From JBFMHD01 sp040752395 [NCBI: Candidatus Hydrogenedentota bacterium] (lineage in GTDB: Bacteria; JBFMHD01), in NCBI GenBank assembly GCA_040752395.1, contig JBFMHD010000038.1, forward strand, positions 1 through 16,520: a stretch of 16,520 nt of DNA. The letters are read 5' to 3'. A program made the translations under genes and the position numbers. How positions within the stretch are numbered: the first letter of the stretch is position 1; each line of letters starts with the position of its first letter. The notes beneath the pieces were generated by a model. That model was not told the DNA's origin and searched no databases. It saw only the letters and a list, made by a program, of their open reading frames with translations. Of the stretch, positions 3,088-15,735 are shown one piece after another.

Positions 3088-3933
3088 ATGAATTTTCAGG
3101 ATGTTATCTTAAATCTACAGAATTACTGGGATAAGAGAGGTTGTCTTATAGCACAGCCATATGATATTGAGAAAGGAGCAGGAACTTTCAGCCCGCATAC
3201 TTTTCTTCGTGTATTAGGACCAAAGCCGTGGAAAGTAGCATATGTAGAACCCTCGCGAAGGCCGACTGATGGCAGATATGGTGAAAACCCGAATCGGCTC
3301 CAGCATTATTATCAATTCCAGGTTATATTAAAACCCGCGCCAGCTAATATACAGGATATCTATTTAAAAAGCATTGAGGAGCTTGGCATAGATTTACAAA
3401 AACATGATATCCGGTTTATTGAGGATGACTGGGAATCACCTACATTAGGTGCCTGGGGATTGGGATGGGAGGTCTGGCTTGATGGTATGGAGATAACGCA
3501 GTTCACGTATTTCCAGCAAGTAGGTGGTATAGACCTTAAACCTGTTTCAGTAGAATTAACCTATGGTATTGAACGTATAGCGATGTATTTACAGAACAAA
3601 GAGAGTGTTTTTGATATATTGTGGAATAATGAGGTAAGGTATGGTGATGTTCATCATATAACCGAGCGCGAGTTTTCGAGATATAATTTTGAGCTTTCTA
3701 ATATAGAGAAACTTTTTGAGTCTTTTTTGTTTTATGAAAAAGAGAATGAGAGATTAATAAAAGAGGGGCTTGTTTATCCAGCGTACGATTTTTGTTTAAA
3801 AGCCTCGCATACATTTAATCTTCTTGATGCGCGCGGCGCTATAAGTGTTTCAGAGCGACAGAGTTATATAGCTCGTGTAAGAAGGCTGGCTTCTGCTTGC
3901 GCAAAACTTTACTGCGAGCAGCAAGCCGGGTAA
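3088..3933 (+). CDS. glyQ: Glycyl-tRNA synthetase alpha subunit (GlyQ)
   Basis: This is the class II catalytic subunit of the alpha2beta2 glycyl-tRNA synthetase, which charges tRNA-Gly together with GlyS. The family signature is intact: [16 protein letters not shown] at 30-45, [19 protein letters not shown] at 54-72, [18 protein letters not shown] at 113-130, [11 protein letters not shown] at 137-147 and [11 protein letters not shown] at 157-167. I chose the ATG at 3088 because bacterial GlyQ proteins begin close to the (F/L)Q..IL.LQ..W segment. The reading frame is open 20 codons further up to a TTG at 3028 that adds a non-conserved basic tail. The 281-residue product is slightly shorter than usual: the typical C-terminal tail after the YIARVRRLA helix is trimmed, and intergenic repeats start 5 bases past the stop. 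glyS follows on the same strand. Confidence 0.96.
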
Positions 3934-3937
3934 GGTT

Positions 3938-4001
3938 GGCTTCAGGCTCCAGGCTCCAGGCTTCAGCCGGCTGTAGTCCGTAGCCCAGAGTCTGAAGCCT
4001 G
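3938..4001. repeat. Heptamer/20-mer repeat filling the glyQ-glyS spacer
   Basis: GGCTTCA, GGCTCCA, GGCTCCA, GGCTTCA form four contiguous heptamers at 3938-3965. The shared 20-mer follows at 3966-3985, and then GAGTCTGAAGCC (3988-3999), which is repeated at 15782-15793. CAGCCGGCTG at 3964-3973 is a perfect 10-bp palindrome, also present at 15765-15774. GGCTTCA at 3959-3965 can pair with TGAAGCC at 3993-3999. Confidence 0.85.
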
Positions 4002-4037
4002 ACTATAAAGAAATAGGACTTTTCATCGGGGATATCT

Positions 4038-6119
4038 ATGGCTACACACGATTTATTATTTGAACTCGGTGCTGAGGAGATACCTGCAAGGTTTCTGGTA
4101 AACAGAGAAGAAGAATTCAAAAATATTTTGATAAATCTTTGCAGAGAATTTTATTTCGATTATAGCAATATAGATATTTTCCTGACACCGCGAAGAATAT
4201 CATTTATTATAAAAGAACTTCATGAGAGACAGAGGAAAGAGGAGGTTGAGAAAAAGGGGCCACCGGCTTCATCGGGTCTTGATAAAAATAATAAACCTAC
4301 AAAATCAGCGATCGCGTTTGCTAAATCGAATAATAGAAATCCTGATGAAATCTACATTAAAGACACTGACAAAGGTAAATATATTTTTATAAAAGTAGAT
4401 GTCGGTGGTGGGTTGATAAAAGATGTTTTAGCTGATTTTTTTAAAAAATGGATTTTAGCATTAGAGTTCCCTAAAAAAATGAGATGGGAGGATAGTGATT
4501 TTGAGTTTGCAAGACCGATACGCTGGATTGTAGCAATGTATGCCAGCGAAATAATCACTTTTGAGATAAGTAGAGTTAAAGCCTCAAATATAACCATGGG
4601 GCCGCGTTATTATGGTAAGAAATCTTTTGAAATAACTGATGCAGCTTTATATGAGCTTATCCTTGAAGATAACGGAATAATAGTATCACATATAAAAAGA
4701 CGAAAAAAAATTAGAGAATTAATTGAGGGTATATGTAATAAGAAGGGAAATAAATTTGTTGAAGACAACGAACTGATAGACGAGATAAACTTTCTTGTAG
4801 AGAACCCTGTTATTATACTTTGTGATATAAGCGAGGAATTCATGGATTTACCAGAAGAAGTATTGATTGTTGCAATGAAACATCACCAGCGATTTATACC
4901 GCTATGCAATCACGATAATACGATATCTAAATATTTTATCGTATTTTCAAATACACTACAGGATACTGAAGGATATATCAAGAGAGGAAATGAGAGGGTA
5001 TTAAAAGCGAGATTAAATGATGCAAAATTTTTCTATACAGAAGATATTAAAAAGAAACTGATTGATTACCGTGACGGTTTAAAAAATATGGTTTTTCTTA
5101 CCACAAGGGGAAGCCTGTATGATAAAGAAGAAAGAATAAAGAAAATAGCAATGGAGATACAAAAGATGATAAATTATCACTCTCCACAAAAAATACAAAG
5201 AGCCTCCTATCTTTGCAAGAATGATCTAATCACTCATATGGTTTTTGAATTTCCAGAATTACAGGGCGTTATGGGAACTATTTATGCAAGAAAATCAGGA
5301 GAAGATGATGAGGTTGCTATCTCTATAAAAGAGCATTATTTACCAAGACAGACCGATGACAGGATACCAGAATCATTGCTTGGTAAAATTATATCAATAG
5401 CTGATAAAATTGATACTATAATCTGTGCATTCTCATCTAATAATATCCCAACCGGTGCAGGTGACCCCATCGGTGTCAGGCGTGCTATGATAGGGATTAT
5501 AAGGATACTTGATGAAGGTAATTTAAGTATCCCTATAAAAGAGCTCTTTAAAAAATCAGTAAGCATAGTAAGAGAAAATTTCAATTTCAATGAAGAGGAG
5601 GTACTCAGTCAGATATCGCAATTCTTTATTGAAAGAATAAGGACATACTGGTCAGACAGGATAGGGTTGCCGGTAGATGTAGTCTCAGCCGGGGTCGAAC
5701 TTGAGTTTGATTATTTAAATGACCTGCATAATCGGATAGCTGCGATAAAAAGGTTCAGGGACGTAGGCGATTTCTTAAGTATAGCCATATCATTCAAGCG
5801 GGTTATTAATATACAGCGAGGGATAGAAGACATAACAGGCAAAGTGGACGAGAGTTTATTTATTGAAGAGACAGAGAAGATTTTATACAACGAGACATTG
5901 AAATTGAAAGAGGTCTCTCAGCGATTAATGAAAAATAAAAATTATTATGATTTACTTATAGAGATATCGAAGATAAAGCCGGTAGTCGATAAATTTTTTG
6001 ATGATGTACTTGTTATGACTGATGATATAAAATTACAGAAAAACAGACTCAATCTCCTTTATAAATTAGCATCTATATTTTTAAGTATAATCGACTTCTC
6101 AAAGATACAGACTGATTAA
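4038..6119 (+). CDS. glyS: Glycyl-tRNA synthetase beta subunit (GlyS)
   Basis: The 693-residue product has the usual length for the beta subunit of the heterotetrameric glycyl-tRNA synthetase, which contributes tRNA binding. Recognisable blocks are the N-terminal LLFELGAEEIPAR (6-18), LTPRR (49-53), the KKMRWEDSDFEFARPIRW stretch (146-163) and MKHHQRF (280-286). Further on are an HD-like segment around IADKIDTI and the GAGDPIGVRRAMIGIIRIL block. A helical C-terminal region follows, which in this family includes the DALR-type anticodon-binding domain. CGGGGA lies 5 bases before the ATG. The gene is separated from glyQ by 104 bases of repeats but probably shares its transcript. No frameshift or truncation is visible. 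Confidence 0.96.
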   Translation: MATHDLLFELGAEEIPARFLVNREEEFKNILINLCREFYFDYSNIDIFLTPRRISFIIKELHERQRKEEVEKKGPPASSGLDKNNKPTKSAIAFAKSNNRNPDEIYIKDTDKGKYIFIKVDVGGGLIKDVLADFFKKWILALEFPKKMRWEDSDFEFARPIRWIVAMYASEIITFEISRVKASNITMGPRYYGKKSFEITDAALYELILEDNGIIVSHIKRRKKIRELIEGICNKKGNKFVEDNELIDEINFLVENPVIILCDISEEFMDLPEEVLIVAMKHHQRFIPLCNHDNTISKYFIVFSNTLQDTEGYIKRGNERVLKARLNDAKFFYTEDIKKKLIDYRDGLKNMVFLTTRGSLYDKEERIKKIAMEIQKMINYHSPQKIQRASYLCKNDLITHMVFEFPELQGVMGTIYARKSGEDDEVAISIKEHYLPRQTDDRIPESLLGKIISIADKIDTIICAFSSNNIPTGAGDPIGVRRAMIGIIRILDEGNLSIPIKELFKKSVSIVRENFNFNEEEVLSQISQFFIERIRTYWSDRIGLPVDVVSAGVELEFDYLNDLHNRIAAIKRFRDVGDFLSIAISFKRVINIQRGIEDITGKVDESLFIEETEKILYNETLKLKEVSQRLMKNKNYYDLLIEISKIKPVVDKFFDDVLVMTDDIKLQKNRLNLLYKLASIFLSIIDFSKIQTD

Positions 6120-6161
6120 TTTCCATCACATCTCTTTTAAACCCTATTTTGCTCATGGGTT

Positions 6162-6240
6162 ACAAAGTGACAAAGGTACAGAGGCACATAGCCACAGAGG
6201 GATATAAAAAGCCTCAAAAAACTTTGTGCCTTTGTGCCTG
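6162..6240. repeat. Short-word repeats (ACAAAG/TTTGTGCC family) after glyS
   Basis: ACAAAGTGACAAAGGTACAG and GAGGCACATAGCCACAGAGG are followed by an opposite-strand version, TTTGTGCC TTTGTGCC TG, at 6223-6240. AGGCAC (6182-6187) can pair with GTGCCT (6234-6239). This may help end the glyS transcript, but it lacks a U-tract of the intrinsic type. It is another intergenic array with words different from those around positions 60 and 3940. Confidence 0.6.
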
Positions 6241-6251
6241 TCAATTATTTT

Positions 6252-6280
6252 TTGACAATTTTGCTAAAAATAAGTATAAA
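6252..6280 (+). promoter_or_regulatory. Sigma-70-type promoter upstream of the aspartic protease gene
   Basis: TTGACA (6252-6257), a 17-base spacer and TATAAA (6275-6280) form a near-consensus housekeeping promoter. The -35 is also the right arm of the hairpin TGTCAA/TTGACA (6239-6257). Initiation near 6287 would leave an untranslated leader of about 95 bases before 6382, in which no known riboswitch was recognised. Confidence 0.65.
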
Positions 6281-6381
6281 CATTTATTTATCCTTTAGCA
6301 CAATGCCTGACCAATCGTTAAAGCTGACCACCGTCCAAGCATGATTGTCGATGATATTAGATATTTTAGCATGGGGTCAAA

Positions 6382-6756
6382 ATGAGGATTGTAAAAGAGA
6401 TAGAGATTGAAGGTAAAAAAGCTATAGCGCTATTTGACACTGGTTCTATGCATACCTATGTCGTGAGTCAGCTATTAGAAGGTGTTGCTATCCGTTGCCT
6501 ATCAGAGACTTACAAAGTAGCATTAGGTGGAAGGATAGTTGAGGTAAAAGAGTATTGTGCAATTGAAGGCAGGATTGAAGGCCTTGTATTTCACACCGAG
6601 GCAATCCCTATTGATGAACTGGGGAGAGTGGATGGAAAAAAGATTGATATTCTTATTGGTGCTTTAACTATGGAAGAGTGGGAGATAATTCCAAACCCTA
6701 AGGACGCAACATTAGATTTGTCAGGATTAAAGAGAAGAGAGTTTACTGAATTTTAA
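6382..6756 (+). CDS. Small retropepsin-like (clan AA) aspartic protease domain protein
   Basis: The 124-residue product has the hallmark of single-domain retroviral-type aspartic proteases. The catalytic motif DTGS is at 19-22 in the context IALFDTGSMHTYV. A hydrophobic flap-like stretch follows, and then the second family block IDILIGALTMEEWEIIPN (88-105) and a closing LDLSG (111-115). Enzymes of this fold act as homodimers, each chain giving one Asp. No signal peptide or membrane segment is seen, so it is presumably cytosolic, and the substrate is unknown. GGGG at 6373-6376 lies 5 bases before the ATG, and an in-frame TAG lies upstream at 6367-6369, so the start is secure. It stands alone between two promoter-like sites. 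Clan AA membership is fairly sure; proteolytic activity is not proven. Confidence 0.8.
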   Translation: MRIVKEIEIEGKKAIALFDTGSMHTYVVSQLLEGVAIRCLSETYKVALGGRIVEVKEYCAIEGRIEGLVFHTEAIPIDELGRVDGKKIDILIGALTMEEWEIIPNPKDATLDLSGLKRREFTEF

Positions 6757-6774
6757 AAGTATTATTTCTTTTAT

Positions 6775-6803
6775 TTGACATTTTTTTTATAGTATTTTAA
6801 ATT
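6775..6803 (+). promoter_or_regulatory. Promoter of the giant surface protein gene
   Basis: A perfect TTGACA (6775-6780) is followed at 16-17 bases by TTAAAT/TAAATT (6797-6803). Expected initiation near 6810 lies downstream of an ATG at 6806, which argues that this ATG is not the start codon and that the ATG at 6863 is used. Confidence 0.55.
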
Positions 6804-6820
6804 AAATGACGATTTATTAT

Positions 6821-6850
6821 AAGAAAGATAACGAAAGAAGCAAGAAGCAA
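6821..6850. repeat. 30-bp repeat copy in the leader of the giant gene
   Basis: This stretch (AAGAAAGATAACGAAAG.. then AAGCAAGAAGCAA) matches 15657-15686 at 29 of 30 positions, in the same orientation. It lies between the inferred transcription start and the SD sequence GAGGAG (6853-6858), so it would be transcribed as 5' untranslated RNA. Confidence 0.85.
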
Positions 6851-6862
6851 ACGAGGAGATTA

Positions 6863-9800
6863 ATGCATTATAATTATAGAAGATTAGTCTATGCTATAGT
6901 AGCTTTATTTGTTATAATAGTAACTCCTTTATTTGCAGATGATACATCGGTATGGCTTTCATTAGATGGTACACAGGATTCAATAACCACAGCTAAAATA
7001 GGAGAGTTACTCGATGTATGGGTAATAGACCCTTATGCTAATGTAAATCCACTTGCTCTTGATACTGTAACCGTCACACTTTTTTCCCAGATACCTGGTA
7101 ATGATACAGAGACCTTAACTCTTCTGGAATTAGATATAAATCTTGGGATATTTCATATAAATGGTGGGGGAGTTTTATTATCAACTACAACAACTGAGAC
7201 AAACACAAATAACAAGATTTTAGTAACAAAGGTTAATGACACAGTAGCTGTGTGGTATGGTGTAAGACCATACGAGGATTCGATAATAGTACAACCCGCG
7301 ACCACGGCTGCTGAGGCTGATTTTATTGATAGTTTTTTTATACCAGGTCCTGCTTTAATAGTAGAAACGTATTCAATCTATCCCGGATTTATACCTCCAC
7401 AGCAGAATGACACAGTTTATGTCGTGATTACAGATGCTGATGCGAATGAAGACCCTTATGCTCAAGACCAGATTACAATAACAGTAACTAATAATCAGAC
7501 ACTGGATTCACGGTCATTTACTCTTATAGAGACCTCTGATACAACAGGTGTCTTTTATTCAGCAGCCACAGGTGTGATTCTTGAACTCATCGATACTACT
7601 TATGTGAGTACTTTAGATAATATTATTGCCTGTACAACGGTCTCTGTTAATTACTTAACATTAAGGTATCTTGACCCGGATGACAACGATTTAACTTTTG
7701 ACACTGTTTCTGTTGTACCTGAACCTAACTCAATTATTGTGATAACTGATGGGAGTGATACAGAGGATTCATTTGCCATAGGAGATACGAGGCTTTTTGT
7801 ACTTGTTAAAGACTATGATGAAGACATAGATGGTTCTGTTGATGAGGTTTCGGTTACAGTATATAGCAATACAGGTGATAGTGTTATTGTTACTATAAGG
7901 GAGTCGATGCCGCCGTTTTCAGCAGGCGTATTTCACGATAATTTAAACAACGGCGTTATTTTAACTGATAGCGGCACAGCTCAATATGGTGATAATATTC
8001 TTCTGGTTGGTAACGCTTCTACGTATAATTATATTACAGCTGTTTATCAAGATAATGATGCGGCGAATGACAGGGTTACGGATACTGCATCTTGCTATCG
8101 AAAAAATGATACAGGGATAATCGAATTTATTAATGCCCAGGCCTCGATGGTGGATACCTATTCAATAGGAACGAATATTTATATTATTCTTACTGAATAC
8201 GATGAAAACCAGGACCCGATGGTAGCAGAAACAGTATATGTTACGATTATAACCCAGCGGAATGATTCAGAGGTTTTTATTTTAACTGAAAATGGTTTGG
8301 CTTCAGGTATATTCAGTAATACAGGAACATTAGGAATATTTTTAACTGACACAAAAGGAGCGACGGCTGACAGTATAGTTTTTGCAATCAATAATGACAC
8401 GATTGAGATAAGATGGCAAGACAACGCAGTGATAGAGGACAGGGATACAGTGGCTGTCTATAAAGTTCCAAGTGACGGCGATATATATATCTATGATAAC
8501 TTCCAAACATTATCTGATACAGCAAGACCAGGTGATACAATACTAATTCTTATACGTGACAATGATAAAAATTTAGACCCGTCATCTCAAGATTTAGCAG
8601 GAACAGTAACAATATATTCAAAACTTAATGGTGTTGTTATAGATTCTATTGTTTTATTATCTGTATTAGAGTCAGGTAATGCAACAGGTGAATTCACTCA
8701 AGAGATAACCTTATCTGATACAACAAGCGGAGAAACAACACTTTTAGTTGGATATAATTTTGTAGTTGAGGCGATATATACTGATTCTGTTTATAGTACT
8801 GATACAGGGATTGACAGCATCGTGATAAAATTAAGATATACTTCCTCAAGCGGTATTTTTACAGTAGATACCCAGGCGAGTATGGCTGTTGATTCCTATG
8901 CTATTTATGACTCGATATATATTTTAGGAACTGATTATAACAGAAATATTAATCCTCTGAGTAAAGACACAATAGTTGTTACTCTTTCTACAAACTGTGG
9001 TGATACTGAAATATTAGTATTAACAGAGACAACAGATACAAGCGGTATGTTTATTAACCTGTTGCCTGTATATATTTATGATACTTTATTAGTGGTAGGC
9101 GATAATATTTTAACTGCTGGATATGGCGATACTATTACAGTAAATTATATTGATATTTATGATGCATCTGATTCAGCAACAGGTAGTGTTATTGTAAGAC
9201 GCATCAATAGAAGTTCTAACATTACTCTTATTAACAGCCTCGGTCAGGATACAGATCATTATTATGTTAATTCGAGTTCAGTGTATGTTATTTTAACAGA
9301 TTATGATGCGAATGTGAATCCGGAATCACGAGACACCGTTGTTGTTACTTTATTTACTTTCAATGGTTCACAATATATTGATACAGAAATTATTGTATTA
9401 ACAGAGATATTATCATCAACAGGCGCTTTTACGAGTTCTCAAACTATTACTCTGTCGAGTTCGCAGTCAGGGACAGGTATTTTACTTTGCGGAAATTCAG
9501 ACTCTGTTGTTGTAAAATATGAAGACATAGGTTCAAGCATAACTGATACAGTCTATGATACAGCTATAGCTATTTATGTTCCTGTTGTTTCTAACTTAAC
9601 AATACTTGACAAGACAGGCATTGTACCTACAAATATATTTATTGGTGACACGTTTACTATAATACTTACTGATTTAGATGAAAATAAAAATCCGTTAGCA
9701 ATTGATACAGTACTTATAACAATAGCTGTATATCCTACTTTAACAAGCCGAAGTGATACAGTTTATTTACAGCTCAGTGAAACAACTGAATCAGGTGTTT

Positions 9801-11392
9801 TTCGCGGTTTTTTTGAGTCACCGTTATATACATCAGATACTTTTTATGGTCAGGGTACTAGTGACAGTGTTCTTTTCATAGATTCAGGCGAACAGCTTGC
9901 TGTAATATATAATGATAATGATGATTCTACAGACTCAAGAATAGATATCTCAATATTTATGAAAACAAGAACAACTACAGCGTTGTTGAAAATAGTTAAT
10001 AGCAGTGGGGTAGATACAGACCTGTTTTTCATTGGTGATAGTCTATATATTTATCTTACTGATGCTGATAGAAACTGGGATAAGAAAGCGAAGGACACTG
10101 TGATCGTTACTCTTCATAGTGTTACTACAAATGATACTGAGTATATAGTTTTAACAGAGAGCAGTGACACGAGTGGTATTTTTACAAATGTTAATTATCC
10201 TGGTCTTGCTTTAAGAAAGACCGCGAGTTTAGTTTTATATGATAACATTTTGGCAGTCTCTACTTTAGATACAGGCTCACGAGCTCTTCAGCTTTTATAT
10301 ACAGACACACAAATTGAGTATCAATATGATACAGCAAATATTACTGATATCCAGGTTACTGCTACTCTTGTCTTATTGGATTCTTTATTTCAAGCAGCTG
10401 ATACTTTTTATACTACAGGTGAATTATATGCAACTCTTACAGATTTAGATGCAGATGTAAATCCGGTTATACGTGATACTGTTGTAGTGACTTTATTAAT
10501 TATTGAAACGAATGATTCAGAATTATTAGTTTTAACTGAGATTAATTCTAATATAGGTATTTTCAGTGATACTACTTCTGGTTTAAGTTTTGCGTTAAAG
10601 GGTGCAGGTGGGGTCAGCAGAAATAATGTTTTACAACCCGATACAAGTGGTACCATTGTTGGTTACTGTAATGATGCGTATGATACAGCTTATTTTATTG
10701 ACAATGCTTCTACTGCAGTGATTGTTCTTGTTAATAAAAATGGGTATGCAGTGTCTGAGTATATATGTGGGATAGACAGCGTTTATATTATATTGACTGA
10801 CCTCGATGCTAATCAAAACAGATTATCGATTGAGACAGTTGTTGTCACGGTAACACACAAGTATAATGATACTGAGATAATCGCCTTAACCGAGCTTTGG
10901 GCTGATAGTGGTGTATTCAGCAATCTGGGGACAGCAGGGTTACCTATCTCTGCGGTTAATGGTATGGTTATGAATGATGGCATACTTTATGTCCAGGCAT
11001 TAAGAGTCAATCGGGACGAGATAATAGTGATATATCTTGAATCTTCAGGTGCAGGGACACAGAATCCGATTCGACCCACTGTAACTCCGGGGTTACCTGT
11101 CGTAACAGATTTCTCAAAAACCATTGTTGGACCTAATCCATTTAGAGGGGATGTAAATGCAACGATAACTTTTCAGGATATACCTGATCAGTTTACCATA
11201 AGGATTTATACAATCTCAGGGAAACTTGTTTATGAATATACAGGAACCACTCAGGCTTTAAATACGCCGGGGCGCTTTGTCTGGGATGTAATAAATGGTG
11301 CGGGCGAGAGTGTAAGGAGCGGTATCTATGTATACTATATTGAGTCTCCCGGGATAGGTAAAAAGACAGGGAAGATAGCGATTATAAGATGA
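6863..11392 (+). CDS. Giant secreted repeat protein with FlgD/type IX-like C-terminal domain
   Basis: The 1509-residue product has a signal peptide (residues 1-25, two Arg, a hydrophobic run, then LFA before the Asp-Asp). About 11 beta-rich repeats of roughly 125 residues follow, then a Pro/Thr linker and a final 97-residue domain (1413-1509). That domain has GPNPFRG at 1423-1429, IRIYTISGKLVYE at about 1446-1458 and RSGIYVYYIE. This is the FlgD-like Ig domain used as a C-terminal sorting signal or surface anchor in FCB-type bacteria. Repeats carry a D.D.N.(D/N)P motif, then DTV.VT(L/V), (D/N)(T/S)E..(V/I)LTE and (S/T)G.F. I start at 6863 because GAGGAG lies 4 bases upstream and the signal peptide follows directly. 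An earlier in-frame ATG at 6806 would read through the repeat element and lies at the promoter. The role is inferred: an S-layer, adhesin or stalk protein. Confidence 0.85.
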   Translation: MHYNYRRLVYAIVALFVIIVTPLFADDTSVWLSLDGTQDSITTAKIGELLDVWVIDPYANVNPLALDTVTVTLFSQIPGNDTETLTLLELDINLGIFHINGGGVLLSTTTTETNTNNKILVTKVNDTVAVWYGVRPYEDSIIVQPATTAAEADFIDSFFIPGPALIVETYSIYPGFIPPQQNDTVYVVITDADANEDPYAQDQITITVTNNQTLDSRSFTLIETSDTTGVFYSAATGVILELIDTTYVSTLDNIIACTTVSVNYLTLRYLDPDDNDLTFDTVSVVPEPNSIIVITDGSDTEDSFAIGDTRLFVLVKDYDEDIDGSVDEVSVTVYSNTGDSVIVTIRESMPPFSAGVFHDNLNNGVILTDSGTAQYGDNILLVGNASTYNYITAVYQDNDAANDRVTDTASCYRKNDTGIIEFINAQASMVDTYSIGTNIYIILTEYDENQDPMVAETVYVTIITQRNDSEVFILTENGLASGIFSNTGTLGIFLTDTKGATADSIVFAINNDTIEIRWQDNAVIEDRDTVAVYKVPSDGDIYIYDNFQTLSDTARPGDTILILIRDNDKNLDPSSQDLAGTVTIYSKLNGVVIDSIVLLSVLESGNATGEFTQEITLSDTTSGETTLLVGYNFVVEAIYTDSVYSTDTGIDSIVIKLRYTSSSGIFTVDTQASMAVDSYAIYDSIYILGTDYNRNINPLSKDTIVVTLSTNCGDTEILVLTETTDTSGMFINLLPVYIYDTLLVVGDNILTAGYGDTITVNYIDIYDASDSATGSVIVRRINRSSNITLINSLGQDTDHYYVNSSSVYVILTDYDANVNPESRDTVVVTLFTFNGSQYIDTEIIVLTEILSSTGAFTSSQTITLSSSQSGTGILLCGNSDSVVVKYEDIGSSITDTVYDTAIAIYVPVVSNLTILDKTGIVPTNIFIGDTFTIILTDLDENKNPLAIDTVLITIAVYPTLTSRSDTVYLQLSETTESGVFRGFFESPLYTSDTFYGQGTSDSVLFIDSGEQLAVIYNDNDDSTDSRIDISIFMKTRTTTALLKIVNSSGVDTDLFFIGDSLYIYLTDADRNWDKKAKDTVIVTLHSVTTNDTEYIVLTESSDTSGIFTNVNYPGLALRKTASLVLYDNILAVSTLDTGSRALQLLYTDTQIEYQYDTANITDIQVTATLVLLDSLFQAADTFYTTGELYATLTDLDADVNPVIRDTVVVTLLIIETNDSELLVLTEINSNIGIFSDTTSGLSFALKGAGGVSRNNVLQPDTSGTIVGYCNDAYDTAYFIDNASTAVIVLVNKNGYAVSEYICGIDSVYIILTDLDANQNRLSIETVVVTVTHKYNDTEIIALTELWADSGVFSNLGTAGLPISAVNGMVMNDGILYVQALRVNRDEIIVIYLESSGAGTQNPIRPTVTPGLPVVTDFSKTIVGPNPFRGDVNATITFQDIPDQFTIRIYTISGKLVYEYTGTTQALNTPGRFVWDVINGAGESVRSGIYVYYIESPGIGKKTGKIAIIR
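6938..11046 (+). repeat. Eleven-fold internal Ig-like repeat array (protein level)
   Basis: The D.D.N.(D/N)P signature recurs at nucleotide positions near 7029, 7434, 7811, 8195, 8555, 8931, 9299, 9670, 10061, 10442 and 10799, a spacing of roughly 360-405 bases. Copies are diverged at DNA level, so they are old duplications under protein selection, not recent tandem DNA repeats. Units 3, 5, 9 and 11 deviate most at the motif (for example IDGS, DKNLDP, NWDKK, NQNR). The acidic loop resembles calcium-binding loops, which is an inference. Confidence 0.8.
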
Positions 11393-13002
11393 TCAGAATC
11401 TTTTTAATCACGGTTATTTTAATTTTATGTTTGATATTTAGTCTGCCTGTGTATTGCAGGGAGCAGGATGCAGGTGCTACCACAGGTGATTTTCTTACTA
11501 TTGGTGTTAGTTCTCGGGCAGCTGCGATTGGAGAAGCTTATTCTGCATTTGCAGAGGGACCGGAAGGGCTTTTTTATAATCCCGCAGGACTGACATCGAA
11601 CCAGAGAGCAGAAGCTGGTTTTATGTATTATACCCTTTTTGAGGATATCTCTTTTAATTATCTGGGTTTTGTAAGACCTTTAAAAGAGAAAAAAAGTGCT
11701 TATGGTCTCGGGTTAATATATTTAGATTACGGTGATCTTGAACGTATCGGGCTTGATCCAGCCACAGGTGATCTTTTCAGGATGGGAACTTTTGATGCTT
11801 ATGATATGGCTTTAAGTGCTGGTTATGCTTACGATGTAGGTGAGGACATTACTTTAGGTGGGGCTTGTAAAGTTATTCAATCTAATATTGACAATGTTAC
11901 TGCCAATGCGTTTGCTGTAGATTTAGGTGTCAAATTTCATTCGGTTTTTCGTTACCTTGATGCGAGTTTTGTGATTCAGAATATGGGGAGTAAAATGAAA
12001 TTTATTCAAGCAAAAGAAAATCTGCCGGTTACAATGAGAGCAGGATTAAACTGTCATCTTATAGAAGAGAGATTGAACATAGGGGTAGAAGTATTCAAAA
12101 GGAGCAGTGAAGATATTGAGGTGGGTGTAGGAGCAGAATTTTTCCCCTGGTACCAATTTTGTTTAAGGGTAGGATACAATTCCGAAGACGAGGCACAGGA
12201 TGGAGTAAGAGCCGGGTTTGGTGTTCTTTTTGATAATTTCAGGTTTGATTATGCTTATATTCCGAATGATAAATTTGAGGATGGCCACCGGTTCACTGGT
12301 ACGGTAATGTTCGGGCCTCCACCTCCTAAACCTTTACCACAAAAAGAAGAGATAGAAAAAGAAAAACCTTATATTGAGGAGGAAGAAGTTGAGGAGGAAG
12401 AAGTTTTAGAAGAAAAAGTTGAAGAAGAATATGAGAGAGAGATAGAAGAGGCAAAGAAGGAAAGAGAAAAAATAAAACTTAAAGAACAGAGAAAGAAGGA
12501 ATTAGAAGAAGCTTTATCTACCGTCTTAGAAAAAGCCGAAAGAGAAGCATATATTAAAAAAGAAAAAGAGGTTATCAAGGAAGAGAGAGAAGAAGAGGTT
12601 ACAAAGCGAGAGATACCAAAAGAAGTTGAAGAAGCAGTAGAAGTTGTTGAAGAAAAGGTAAGTTTAGAATATGCATTAGACCTTTTTAATAATAAACAAT
12701 ACGAAGAATGTATAACTATATTGAAAGAGTTAGCAGAAAGACCAGATGCTGATTTTAATATTATTTACAATCTGGCAACAGCATATTATACAACTTATCG
12801 TTTCGCATTAGCTACTAAATATTATCAGAAAGCTGTAGATTTAAAACCCACTGATGCTGACGCACATTTATATTTAGGGTATTCATACTATCAACTTGGT
12901 TCAATAGATAGAGCGGTATCAGAGTGGAAGATAGCTTACGAACTTAATCCGAATAATACTCAAGCACGAGACGCATTAAAAGCCTTTAACATTTCAGAAT
13001 AA
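11389..13002 (+). CDS. PorV/UPF0164-like outer-membrane barrel fused to Glu-rich helix and TPRs
   Basis: The 537-residue product has four parts. Residues 1-23 are a signal peptide. Residues about 30-308 form a beta-barrel of the PorV/UPF0164 type, with the family opening TTGDFLTIGVSSRAAAIGEA (31-50) and FYNPAGL (62-68). Residues about 310-425 are a proline patch followed by a very Glu/Lys-rich probable coiled coil. Residues about 426-530 contain TPR units (YALDLFNNKQYEECITILKE, IIYNLATAYYTTYRFALATK, AHLYLGYSYYQLGSIDRAVS). In the type IX secretion system PorV is an outer-membrane shuttle that binds cargo sorting domains. Barrel termini normally face the periplasm, so the helix and TPRs should be periplasmic. 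The start overlaps the stop of the giant gene (ATGA), which strongly suggests paired production. A general UPF0164 transporter-like role remains possible. Confidence 0.82.
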   Translation: MIRIFLITVILILCLIFSLPVYCREQDAGATTGDFLTIGVSSRAAAIGEAYSAFAEGPEGLFYNPAGLTSNQRAEAGFMYYTLFEDISFNYLGFVRPLKEKKSAYGLGLIYLDYGDLERIGLDPATGDLFRMGTFDAYDMALSAGYAYDVGEDITLGGACKVIQSNIDNVTANAFAVDLGVKFHSVFRYLDASFVIQNMGSKMKFIQAKENLPVTMRAGLNCHLIEERLNIGVEVFKRSSEDIEVGVGAEFFPWYQFCLRVGYNSEDEAQDGVRAGFGVLFDNFRFDYAYIPNDKFEDGHRFTGTVMFGPPPPKPLPQKEEIEKEKPYIEEEEVEEEEVLEEKVEEEYEREIEEAKKEREKIKLKEQRKKELEEALSTVLEKAEREAYIKKEKEVIKEEREEEVTKREIPKEVEEAVEVVEEKVSLEYALDLFNNKQYEECITILKELAERPDADFNIIYNLATAYYTTYRFALATKYYQKAVDLKPTDADAHLYLGYSYYQLGSIDRAVSEWKIAYELNPNNTQARDALKAFNISE

Positions 13003-13004
13003 AA

Positions 13005-13032
13005 TTGCTTGACGAAATAAGTGTTTTATAAT
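13005..13032 (+). promoter_or_regulatory. Promoter of the cNMP/GAF-PP2C operon
   Basis: A perfect -10 TATAAT (13027-13032) lies 16 bases after TTGCTT (13005-13010). TTGACG (13009-13014) is a better -35 by sequence, but only 12 bases away. A start near 13039 leaves a short leader that contains the SD AGAGGGG (13041-13047). Confidence 0.5.
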
Positions 13033-13056
13033 TCTAATATAGAGGGGTATACTACT

Positions 13057-13845
13057 ATGGTATCAAAGGAGAGATTTTTTAAAGTCAATTCGATAATTTT
13101 TTTTGAAGGTGACTCTCCTGGTCCGATATATCTTATTCATGAGGGTTCTGTATTACTGATTAAAAGAGATTTAGATATCACTTACAAGGCAGGAAGAGGA
13201 GATCTTATAGGTGTTCCCTCTGCAATAGCTCAGATACCGAGACTTTATACAGCAAGGGTAGTAGAAGAAGTCACAGCTATTGAGATACCTATTTTGAATT
13301 TCAAAAATTTTATTAAGGGGAATATTCCGATAGCTTTAAAAATAGTTCAAAAGATGTGTGCTGAAATTAGAGATTTAAATCGGATACTTGCCGAACCTAT
13401 TGTTAGGATAGAGTCTGAAAAGGGGATGCTTGATATTGGAGATTATTTTTACGATAAAAACCAGGTAAAACAGGCTTTATATGTTTATGAGATTTATCTC
13501 GAAACATATCCAGGGGTTGAAGATTACGAGGACATTGCGTTTAAACTTGCTGGTTTATATGAAAAATCAGGAAATAAAGAGAGGGCATGCGAACTATACA
13601 AAAATCTTAGAGATAGATTTGCCCCTGATTCTATGAAATGGGAGGCTTATAACAAACTTGCAAGAACTATTGAACCATTTGCTGATGAAACAGCGGTTAA
13701 GAAAGATACATCATCACTTCTTGCAGAAGTTTTTGAAAGTATCGGTGGCAAGCACGTTGATAAAGAGAGTCCCCAAAAAGAGGGAGGGGACAAAGATAAT
13801 ATATTAGGATTTCTTCTACAAGAGCAGGAGAAGAGTAAAGAATGA
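13057..13845 (+). CDS. Degenerate cyclic-nucleotide-binding domain protein with helical C-terminal region
   Basis: The 262-residue product begins with a cNMP-binding (CRP/FNR-like) beta-roll, residues about 5-85: VNSIIFFEGDSPGPIYLIHEGSV, then GRGDLIG (46-52). A C-helix follows, then a TPR-like helical region at about 124-206 (GDYFYDKNQVKQALYVYEIYLE, AFKLAGLYEKSGNKERACELYKN) and a charged tail. There is no DNA-binding helix-turn-helix. The phosphate-binding cassette is altered. The expected FGE..(8-10 residues)..R-S/T-A reads IGVPSAIAQIPRLYTA, so the usual Glu is missing and ligand binding is doubtful. I chose the ATG at 13057 because AGAGGGG lies 9 bases upstream. A GTG at 13021 would fall inside the promoter. 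The stop overlaps the next start. Confidence 0.8.
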   Translation: MVSKERFFKVNSIIFFEGDSPGPIYLIHEGSVLLIKRDLDITYKAGRGDLIGVPSAIAQIPRLYTARVVEEVTAIEIPILNFKNFIKGNIPIALKIVQKMCAEIRDLNRILAEPIVRIESEKGMLDIGDYFYDKNQVKQALYVYEIYLETYPGVEDYEDIAFKLAGLYEKSGNKERACELYKNLRDRFAPDSMKWEAYNKLARTIEPFADETAVKKDTSSLLAEVFESIGGKHVDKESPQKEGGDKDNILGFLLQEQEKSKE

Positions 13846-14216
13846 GTGTTGATCTTTTTAAAAAGTATGGGGTTACTTTTAACGAGAACGAGATTATTTT
13901 CTGTGAGCATGAAAAAGGCGATAAGATGTATATTATTATGAATGGTGAGGTTAAGATATCACGCATTGGCAGGACACACGAGCAGGTGCTTGCTATACTT
14001 AAAGAAGGCGATATTTTTGGCGAGATGGCTATAGTTGAGGACAAACCGCGCTCAGCTACAGCTGTTTCTTTGACTTCAACGAGACTATTAGCATTTGGGA
14101 AGGAGGATTTTGATTTTATTTTTGACAGAGAACCAGAACTTGCAGTAAAATTGATAAGAATACTTGCAAAAAGATTAAAGGATACGTATGATATGTTAAA
14201 ACGGAGCATCAGATGA
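13842..14216 (+). CDS. Small single-domain cyclic-nucleotide-binding protein
   Basis: The 124-residue product is essentially one cNMP-binding domain with its C-helix. Residues 10-57 form the beta-roll (GDKMYIIMNGEVKISR at 26-41). The phosphate-binding cassette FGEMAIVEDKPRSATA (59-74) keeps the canonical Glu61, Arg70 and Ser71 at the expected 9-residue spacing, so cAMP or cGMP binding is plausible. There is no output domain: neither helix-turn-helix, cyclase nor kinase. It therefore probably acts by contacting another protein, most simply a neighbour in its operon. AGGAG lies 11 bases before the ATG. It overlaps both neighbours by four bases (ATGA on each side), a layout typical of subunits made in fixed ratio. 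Confidence 0.88.
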   Translation: MSVDLFKKYGVTFNENEIIFCEHEKGDKMYIIMNGEVKISRIGRTHEQVLAILKEGDIFGEMAIVEDKPRSATAVSLTSTRLLAFGKEDFDFIFDREPELAVKLIRILAKRLKDTYDMLKRSIR

Positions 14217-15493
14217 CAGAGCTGGTTGAGATAAGTCCTGATGAAATTCAGGGGATTATAGAAGAAAACAGAGAATTAACAAAACAGGTATTTGATTTAA
14301 AGTCGCTTTTTGAAGCGTGTAAATCTTTAGGAACAACACTTGATACCGCTAAAACACTTGAGAATTTGATAGTTGTTGCTACAAATCTTATGAGGGCACG
14401 CGATGCATCCATACTCCTTGTTGACAGAAGAACTGGTAATCTTATTTTTAAAATAACGCATGGTGCCAAAGGCACTGAACTTGTAGATATGGTCTTACCA
14501 CGCGGACATGGCATAGCTGGCTGGGTCGCTGAAAACGGAAAAGGGTTAATAGTGAATGATCCAGAGAATGACCCGAGATTTGATAAAACAGTCAGTGAAA
14601 AACTTAAATATAAAACAGAAACTTTATTAAGTGTACCTATTAAAAGCGGTGAGAAGGTTATAGGTGTTATCCAGCTCCTTAATAAAAAAGCAGGTGGCAA
14701 GTTTAATGAAAAAGACCTGAGATTACTTGAATCTTTTGGCTCTTATGCCGGGATAGTTCTTACTAATTCATTGATGTATGAAGATATAATGATTGAGAGC
14801 CGAGAAGAATTTGAAAAGACGATTGCGCTTGGAATACAGAAGAGTCTTCTCCCAGTAAGAAATCCACAAATCTCAGGTTTTGAATTATCTGTTTATAATC
14901 ATCCCTCAAAGATAGTCAGGGGTGATTACTATGATTTTTTAGAGAATAAAGATAATTTATATTTAGTATTAGAATCAAACACAGAAACCGGTATTATCGC
15001 AAGTATATTAGCAACTATTTTCAGGAGTACACTGAAGAGTATTATATTATGTAATATTGATTTTAAAGATATAGACAGATATCTGAAAGAGGCGATAAAG
15101 GATGATGTTGAGGGTAATCTTGATAAATTATCTTATTCTTTAATTCAGATAAACAAAGCAAGCAATGATATGTTATTTTTTACTACCGGGAAAATGTTAA
15201 GCGTAAAAATAACAAAGGAGACAATCTCTTCAATCAAATGTAATAACGAACCTCTAAAAATAGAATTGGGGTTTCGGGATAAACTATTATTTGTTTCAAA
15301 TGGTGTGATAGATATACTCTCAAGAAATAGGGACGGTTTGAGTGCTGAAGCAAAACTTAAAGAGATAGTATCTTCAGGTTACGATATGGATACAGGGTCG
15401 TTAGTAGAAACTATTTTTATGTCATTATCATCAATCGCACCTGAAACCGAAATTTTAGAAGATATTACTTTAGTTGCAATTGAAAAGAAGTAG
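14213..15493 (+). CDS. GAF domain protein with degenerate SpoIIE/PP2C-like phosphatase domain
   Basis: The 426-residue product has a short helical start (9-40), a GAF sensor domain (about 35-187, ending GGKFNEKDLRLLESFGSYAGIVLTNS) and a SpoIIE/RsbU-type PP2C fold (about 200-424). The PP2C part opens with the classic IQKSLLP (208-214) and GDYYDF (237-242). Family enzymes dephosphorylate anti-sigma antagonists using metal-binding aspartates. Here the DVSGKG block reads ESNTETG (254-260), the late YTDG reads VSNG (361-364), the GHNPP loop reads TGKML, and DDIT reads EDIT (416-419). Asp238 and Asp417 remain, but at least two expected ligands are lost, so it may be a pseudophosphatase. GGAG lies 6 bases before the ATG, which overlaps the upstream cNMP gene. 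Domain calls are firm; loss of activity is inferred. Confidence 0.85.
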   Translation: MTELVEISPDEIQGIIEENRELTKQVFDLKSLFEACKSLGTTLDTAKTLENLIVVATNLMRARDASILLVDRRTGNLIFKITHGAKGTELVDMVLPRGHGIAGWVAENGKGLIVNDPENDPRFDKTVSEKLKYKTETLLSVPIKSGEKVIGVIQLLNKKAGGKFNEKDLRLLESFGSYAGIVLTNSLMYEDIMIESREEFEKTIALGIQKSLLPVRNPQISGFELSVYNHPSKIVRGDYYDFLENKDNLYLVLESNTETGIIASILATIFRSTLKSIILCNIDFKDIDRYLKEAIKDDVEGNLDKLSYSLIQINKASNDMLFFTTGKMLSVKITKETISSIKCNNEPLKIELGFRDKLLFVSNGVIDILSRNRDGLSAEAKLKEIVSSGYDMDTGSLVETIFMSLSSIAPETEILEDITLVAIEKK

Positions 15494-15502
15494 GGGATCC
15501 AT

Positions 15503-15576
15503 GCGGTCGTAGCTCAGCTGGATAGAGCACAGGATTCCTAATCCTGGAGTCAGAGGTTCGATTCCTCCCGGCCGCG
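15503..15576 (+). tRNA. tRNA-Arg (anticodon CCU)
   Basis: This 74-base gene folds as a full cloverleaf. The acceptor is GCGGTCG with CGGCCGC (one T-G wobble) and the D-stem is GCTC/GAGC. The anticodon stem is CAGGA/TCCTG with loop TTCCTAA, giving anticodon CCT, which reads AGG. The T-loop is TTCGATT. The first T-stem pair is an A-C mismatch. The discriminator is G and CCA is not encoded. It begins only 9 bases after the stop of the GAF/PP2C gene with no obvious own promoter, so it may be processed from that transcript. Confidence 0.95.
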
Positions 15577-15625
15577 AATTCCCATATCTCCTTTGAAAAA
15601 CATTGTAACTATAATAATATCAAGT

Positions 15626-15735
15626 AGAAGCAAGAGGCAAGAAGCAAGATAACGGAAAGAAAGATAACGAAAGAAGCAAGAGGCAAGAAGCAAGATAACG
15701 AAAAAAGTAAGAAGTAAGAAGTGGGAAGTGAGAAG
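15626..15735. repeat. AAGCAAGAGG-type degenerate repeat block with a 29-bp perfect duplication
   Basis: 15626-15654 is repeated exactly at 15672-15700 (AGAAGCAAGAGGCAAGAAGC.. then AAGATAACG). Within it the words GCAAGAG/GCAAGAA recur every 7 bases, followed by GTAAGAA, GTAAGAA, GTGGGAA, GTGAGAA to 15735. A 30-bp part (15657-15686) is shared with the leader of the giant gene. The block lies in the 392-base stretch 15577-15968 between the tRNA and the PHP gene, which contains repeats and no gene I can support. Confidence 0.85.

Follow-up and report, generated by a model that had tools for sequence, protein, structure and literature searches.

In the type IX secretion system (T9SS), as described in the available portions of the papers cited here, PorU and PorZ retain their C-terminal sorting domains (CTDs), which are held by PorV and PorQ (PMC5562754), and uncleaved CTDs are also reported in a second study (PMC11285876). 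Type B cargo proteins use cognate PorP/SprF shuttles, nine of 12 being adjacent in Flavobacterium johnsoniae, where five operons combine a type B cargo with an SprF-like shuttle and a PorE homologue (PMC12618676). PorE, which carries tetratricopeptide repeats (TPRs) and a peptidoglycan-binding domain, binds PorP, while PorP binds the CTD protein, and a PorE-PorP-PG1035 complex has been described (PMC9143113). A review has suggested that cognate PorV-like barrels may shield CTDs from cleavage (PMC10202324), and the surface-layer (S-layer) proteins of Tannerella forsythia are T9SS cargo (PMC8869499). The means by which uncleaved CTD proteins are kept on the surface and their barrels fastened to the wall are still under investigation. 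The present study characterised a two-gene locus in the window, namely the whole 16,520-nt stretch of contig JBFMHD010000038.1 that was analysed, in which a giant repeat protein ending in a CTD (the cargo) is encoded directly before a PorV/PorQ-family barrel with a C-terminal arm. The two products probably form a surface-display pair working like PorZ-PorQ or PorU-PorV, the barrel also bearing a PorE-like tether in the same chain. The features of the pair are as follows.

6863..11392 (+): cargo open reading frame, 1509 amino acids, with a signal-peptide-like start, 11 immunoglobulin (Ig)-like repeats and a C-terminal sorting domain
6923..11062 (+): 11 tandem repeats of about 125 amino acids each, acidic, with a D-x-D-x-N-like motif in most
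11105..11392 (+): FlgD/T9SS-like CTD, with its start near GPNPFRG and the final residues GIGKKTGKIAIIR
11389..13002 (+): barrel protein of 537 amino acids, PorV/PorQ family, carrying a C-terminal arm
11389..11457 (+): probable signal peptide, residues 1-23, judged by eye (helix 2-23 in the model)
11458..12312 (+): outer-membrane barrel, residues 24-308, from profile matches and the alignment of relatives
12316..12339 (+): Pro-rich hinge, residues 310-317, from the sequence
12340..12657 (+): Glu/Lys-rich arm, 106 amino acids, 59% E+K, with a helix predicted at modest confidence at residues 341-403
12658..12999 (+): about 3.5 TPRs, with helices predicted at residues 426-532

The cargo/barrel pair and its recurrence

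The two frames overlap as ATGA, the cargo stop at 11390-11392 meeting the barrel ATG at 11389, as the original prediction had noted. The barrel protein belongs to the PorV/PorQ family NF033709 (169.9 bits against a cut-off of 90; 172.2 for the barrel alone) and is nearer PorQ than PorV (144.8 versus 78.8 bits), scoring under both equivalog cut-offs (220 for PorQ, NF033711; 250 for PorV, NF033710). The barrel had been described as PorV/UPF0164-like; the first half of that label stands, and UPF0164 identity was rejected for want of any match at E ≤ 1, the threshold at which the PorP/SprF shuttle profiles (PF11751, TIGR03519) also gave no match. A profile of the barrel and 16 relatives, to which it is 26-33% identical and with whose ends its F308 aligns, finds PorV of F. 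johnsoniae (6h3i) at 1e-33.

The cargo CTD matches a profile of 12 CTDs encoded beside PorV-like barrels with a domain E-value of 9e-17, where 500 shuffled versions gave 0.15 at best, and shares 33-40% identity with eight aligned CTDs encoded before such barrels. By this profile and by the barrel gene directly downstream it falls within the CTD subtype paired with PorV-like barrels, which bears out the FlgD-like CTD proposed from its GPNPFRG motif, though it stays under the curated cut-offs. Searched with the CTD profile, 177,635 PDB sequences yielded PorZ first (E 0.028, reaching the last residue) and PorU second (E 0.25), both weak matches.

Relatives were searched through a Tenacibaculum locus in its phylum, Bacteroidota, and the counts of relatives given here refer to that phylum. 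Relatives of the window barrel occur in at least 296 of 395 genomes, and the family cut-off is exceeded in 154 of 198; the control phylum of genome G001, labelled Actinobacteria, yielded the barrel family in 0 of 198 genomes and the CTD in 0 of 100. When the best barrel match of each of 30 genomes was taken (L008-L037), a leave-one-out CTD profile matched the reading frame directly upstream in 13 of the 30 loci, a procedure that omits the tested locus, yet relies on training CTDs that were selected visually, for their CTD-like appearance, among those 30 loci. Three further loci (L012, L019, L028), in which a CTD gene precedes two tandem PorV-like barrels, were left out of the 13, and no CTD match lay on the opposite strand among the 30. 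In 12 pairs fetched with longer flanks (L048-L059), the cargo frames span 1093-1447 amino acids.

The converse count was made in 10 genomes hand-picked from the list of barrel relatives, in seven of which the best barrel has no CTD protein directly upstream. Of the 59 CTDs below E 1e-9, 42 have a barrel within 600 bp downstream on the same strand (0.1% expected), a proportion that leans towards pairs because the profile was built from the window CTD and eight CTDs chosen for preceding a barrel; among the strongest CTDs, 17 of 18 are directly followed by one. Within the same genomes, 43 of the 114 barrel rows used have this CTD directly upstream, with CTD rows counted to E 9.4e-10 and barrel rows to 3.1e-19, some of the latter being pieces of one gene. 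Since the pairing recurs in this way, a dedicated partner is the natural reading, and one that fits the cognate shuttles described in the available portions of two studies (PMC12618676, PMC9143113). The dedicated two-gene module of the original prediction is partly upheld: a CTD cargo and a PorV-type barrel encoded as a pair are supported, and conservation of the TPR arm is not supported.

Two other explanations of the barrel are bounded by these counts. An ordinary PorV might collect many CTD cargos, the neighbouring one being a single client whose CTD is cleaved, with the arm serving as a contact to the translocon. Loci L003-L007 offer a precedent, as a protein with a CTD-like end, taken to be PorU, directly precedes a barrel of the same family as that of the window, confirmed in L003 as PorV (539.6 bits, cut-off 250). 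We regard such a general shuttle as unlikely, given the window barrel's own PorV score (78.8 against 250) and the many family members in the 10 genomes (114 rows used, 43 with the CTD directly upstream), which favour specialised pairs. The next solved relatives after PorV for the barrel profile, TbuX and TodX, are FadL-type transporters, so that the barrel protein could also be envisaged as a transporter of FadL type bearing a TPR scaffold, the cargo leaving by another route and the adjacency having no physical meaning; with CTD-then-barrel order recurring far above chance and the cargo CTD subtype resembling barrel-held CTDs, this seems quite improbable.

The repeat array and the C-terminal arm

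The cargo start at 6863 is favoured over 6806 because GAGGAG precedes it at 6853-6858 and a signal-peptide-like stretch, judged by eye, follows it; the signal peptide of the original prediction agrees with this reading. Its estimate of about 11 repeats agrees with leave-one-out profiles, in which each of the 11, spaced 118-134 amino acids apart, is recovered by the other ten at 33.6-93.0 bits, shuffled repeats (200 shuffles each) scoring at most 13.0. The whole cargo is strongly acidic, with 199 D+E against 66 K+R. Searched against PDB, the repeat profile retrieved the S-layer protein of Nitrosopumilus maritimus at E 1.4e-4 (second match, 0.12), a weak sequence kinship concerning one repeat. 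A single repeat modelled on the alignment of all eleven reached a predicted local distance difference test (pLDDT) of 83.4, and Foldseek again ranked the N. maritimus protein first (E 1.2e-4); in VIA-align the two gave Z 14.2 with a root-mean-square deviation of 3.4 over 114 aligned residues, the next unrelated protein scoring 9.8. The repeats are thereby related to Nitrosopumilus-type S-layer proteins in sequence and fold, and the modelled repeat appears to resemble their Ig domains. The cargo repeat is present in 18 of 296 Bacteroidota genomes.

In the barrel protein, the predicted TPRs were corroborated by TPR_2 (42.2 bits, cut-off 27), so that it shares the TPR domain of PorE; the PorE-type beta-propeller, carboxypeptidase-like and OmpA peptidoglycan-binding domains gave no match at E ≤ 1. 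The Glu/Lys-rich helical coiled coil of about 110 residues that had been proposed survives as a Glu/Lys stretch with a helix predicted at modest confidence. The coiled-coil label was dropped, as neither heptad nor i/i+4 signals exceeded those of shuffles: the best a/d phase held 10 hydrophobic residues against a shuffle mean of 11.5, and E was followed by K or R at i+4 eight times against 10.1. Given what is generally known of such barrels, the arm should lie in the periplasm.

Relatives joining a PorV-like N-terminus to a TPR C-terminus, to which the original prediction had looked, were found neither among the matches listed in the two phyla covered nor in 25 loci fetched for a long listed open frame (388-1236 amino acids, frames judged by eye). 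In 24 of these 25 no domain follows the barrel, L074 among them being interrupted by a stop within the matched region. The remaining locus (L046, genome G162) encodes at 3570-8998 a CTD protein (FlgD_ig 39.2 bits and CHU_C 31.6, both against 27) followed by a PorV-like barrel that ends in a SPOR-like tail (20.9 bits alone and 17.3 in the whole protein, cut-off 21); 8 nt separate the stop of the CTD protein from the barrel's first MKK. SPOR domains bind peptidoglycan. L046 provides a single, independent example in which the barrel of a CTD pair is extended at its C-terminus. In the order to which G162 belongs (80 genomes), the matches listed included no further row covering the tail; one row, from G446, reached query residue 372 through a stop.

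Further searches covered other sources. One search of genome contigs for relatives of the barrel protein returned two TPR matches and no barrel relative, viral contigs yielded no relatives, and a plasmid search gave a single PorV/PorQ match, from Rhodothermus, covering 35%. The literature searched, in its available portions, contained no PorV/PorQ-TPR fusion.

Proposed mechanism and the genes that follow

Starting from the parts, barrel family, CTD kinship and recurring gene pair established above, the following mechanism is proposed. The cargo would be exported by Sec and would cross the outer membrane via a T9SS-type translocon encoded elsewhere; the CTD would then remain uncleaved and docked on the PorV/Q-type barrel that the next gene encodes, so that the acidic array, with its 11 Ig domains, would project from the cell, perhaps as part of an S-layer-like coat. 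The arm, comprising the Pro hinge, charged helix and TPRs, would hang in the periplasm and, by analogy, fasten the complex to a periplasmic partner or the cell wall; a single chain may thereby serve the function that, for type B cargo, is divided between PorP and PorE, the latter with TPRs and a peptidoglycan-binding domain. A more specific version, possible but doubtful, is a one-chain shuttle and cell-wall tether, perhaps in a lineage outside Bacteroidota, whose PorV/Q-type barrel would capture a single S-layer-like cargo via the CTD and whose helix-TPR arm would hold the coat to the periplasm. It would combine what PorQ (or PorP) does with what PorE does, and anchor the coat by a protein barrel instead of lipopolysaccharide.

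Several observations weigh against a display pair with a fused tether. The cargo CTD scores below every T9SS cut-off tried, both for type A (TIGR04183, 19.9 bits against 23; Por_Secre_tail, PF18962, 13.3 against 27) and for type B (CHU_C, PF13585, 20.7 against 27), as well as for FlgD_ig (17.3 against 27), and as a lone query against PDB it finds only PorZ (E 0.14) and an unrelated glucanase (0.7). At E ≤ 1 in PDB, the whole cargo as a single query has no match and the barrel alone no chain, and the single-sequence model of the barrel protein failed for the barrel (pLDDT 47.1, residues 19-334 below 50), so that it was used for the helices only. By profile, 14 of the 30 loci have no CTD in their 1.5-kb flank. 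With the whole barrel protein as query, no barrel match among those listed reaches the TPR region, and since no relative turned out to carry the TPR arm, the role given to it rests on analogy.

The repeats contribute two further points of this kind. They were not found in the 12 cargos of other pairs (best E 0.0052, with a score below its bias). Five places with other giant repeat proteins were also fetched, two of the proteins running off their contigs; the three with visible ends have neither the window CTD type nor a barrel in the fetched stretch. As a hallmark of the module the repeat was therefore rejected (three of three judgeable proteins without this CTD and barrel), and it is better regarded as a passenger type.

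Downstream of the pair lie the following features.

13021..15493 (+): three genes encoding a cyclic nucleotide monophosphate (cNMP)-binding protein with TPRs, a cNMP-binding protein and a GAF protein with a SpoIIE-like domain, with two ATGA overlaps
15502-15577: tRNA-Arg, after the GAF/SpoIIE-like gene

The gap between the barrel gene and the first of these is 18 nt, or 54 nt if the latter starts at its first ATG. Terminator-like sites between 6000 and 16520 number three, versus 3.9 expected from shuffles, and none falls at the junctions of this run of genes; judged from this arrangement, the three genes are probably in the same transcript as the pair. With five genes in one run of short gaps and overlaps, and TPRs also in the first cNMP-binding product, the arm might instead report the state of the surface to the cNMP-binding and GAF/SpoIIE-like products. 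Such a signalling role is very improbable, as the three products have, by eye, no signal peptide or membrane segment, so that no route across the inner membrane is visible.

The SpoIIE-like domain reaches 24.2 bits (cut-off 25) and keeps GDYYD; it is without what we take to be the usual D-G motif, so the product may be without phosphatase activity. Short direct repeats of the AGAAGCAAGAGGCAAGAAGCAAGA type occupy 15626-15726, downstream of the tRNA gene. Upstream of the pair, profile matches identify a two-subunit glycyl-tRNA synthetase, which is, to our knowledge, not typical of Bacteroidota. A lipoprotein-like frame at 2136-2870 matches only the 5'-nucleotidase C-terminal domain (PF02872), the metallophosphatase domain not being listed. 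Repeats of the TTTGTGCCTTTGTGCC type lie on both strands of the intergenic segment 6175-6238 (three matches with at most three mismatches, against 0.09 expected), and a small frame at 6382-6756 resembles clan AA aspartyl proteases (Asp_protease_2, E 0.0014, under the cut-off).

Comparison with known systems

The cargo resembles the S-layer protein of N. maritimus in its Ig-like repeat fold, its acidity and, weakly, its sequence; the N. maritimus protein, from the available portion of the source, is archaeal and anchored otherwise (PMC11153153), and formation of a lattice by the window protein would be an extrapolation. In gene order the locus matches the Bacteroidota pairs (the 13 of L008-L037, and L048-L059), whereas those examined stop at the end of the barrel and carry passengers unlike the window cargo. 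L046 likewise encodes a CTD protein followed by a PorV-like barrel with a C-terminal tail, SPOR-like where the window barrel has the charged helix and TPRs. The many CTD/PorV-like pairs per genome suggest that cognate shuttles extend beyond type B cargo with PorP-type barrels.

With PorQ-PorZ and PorV-PorU, as far as the source available describes them (PMC5562754), the window shares a barrel of the PorV/Q family, a PorZ/PorU-like CTD and a gene order, exemplified by L003-L007, in which the CTD protein is encoded immediately ahead of the barrel. Unlike those pairs, its passenger is an Ig-repeat array, its barrel has an arm and the equivalog cut-offs are not reached. With the type B cargo, PorP/SprF and PorE system, in the published portions available (PMC9143113, PMC12618676), it shares the linkage of the cargo gene to a FadL-type barrel of its own, and the TPR-bearing tethering part can be likened to its TPR arm; in contrast, its barrel is PorV/Q-type rather than PorP-type, its TPRs are fused onto the barrel and, unlike PorE, the protein has none of the propeller, carboxypeptidase-like or OmpA domains searched for. 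The tethering model, in the portion available (PMC9143113), uses a separate barrel and PorE, a connection that a natural fusion would name directly. By this analogy, the window pair reads as the published plan, except that the barrel is of PorV/Q type and bears the tether in the same chain.

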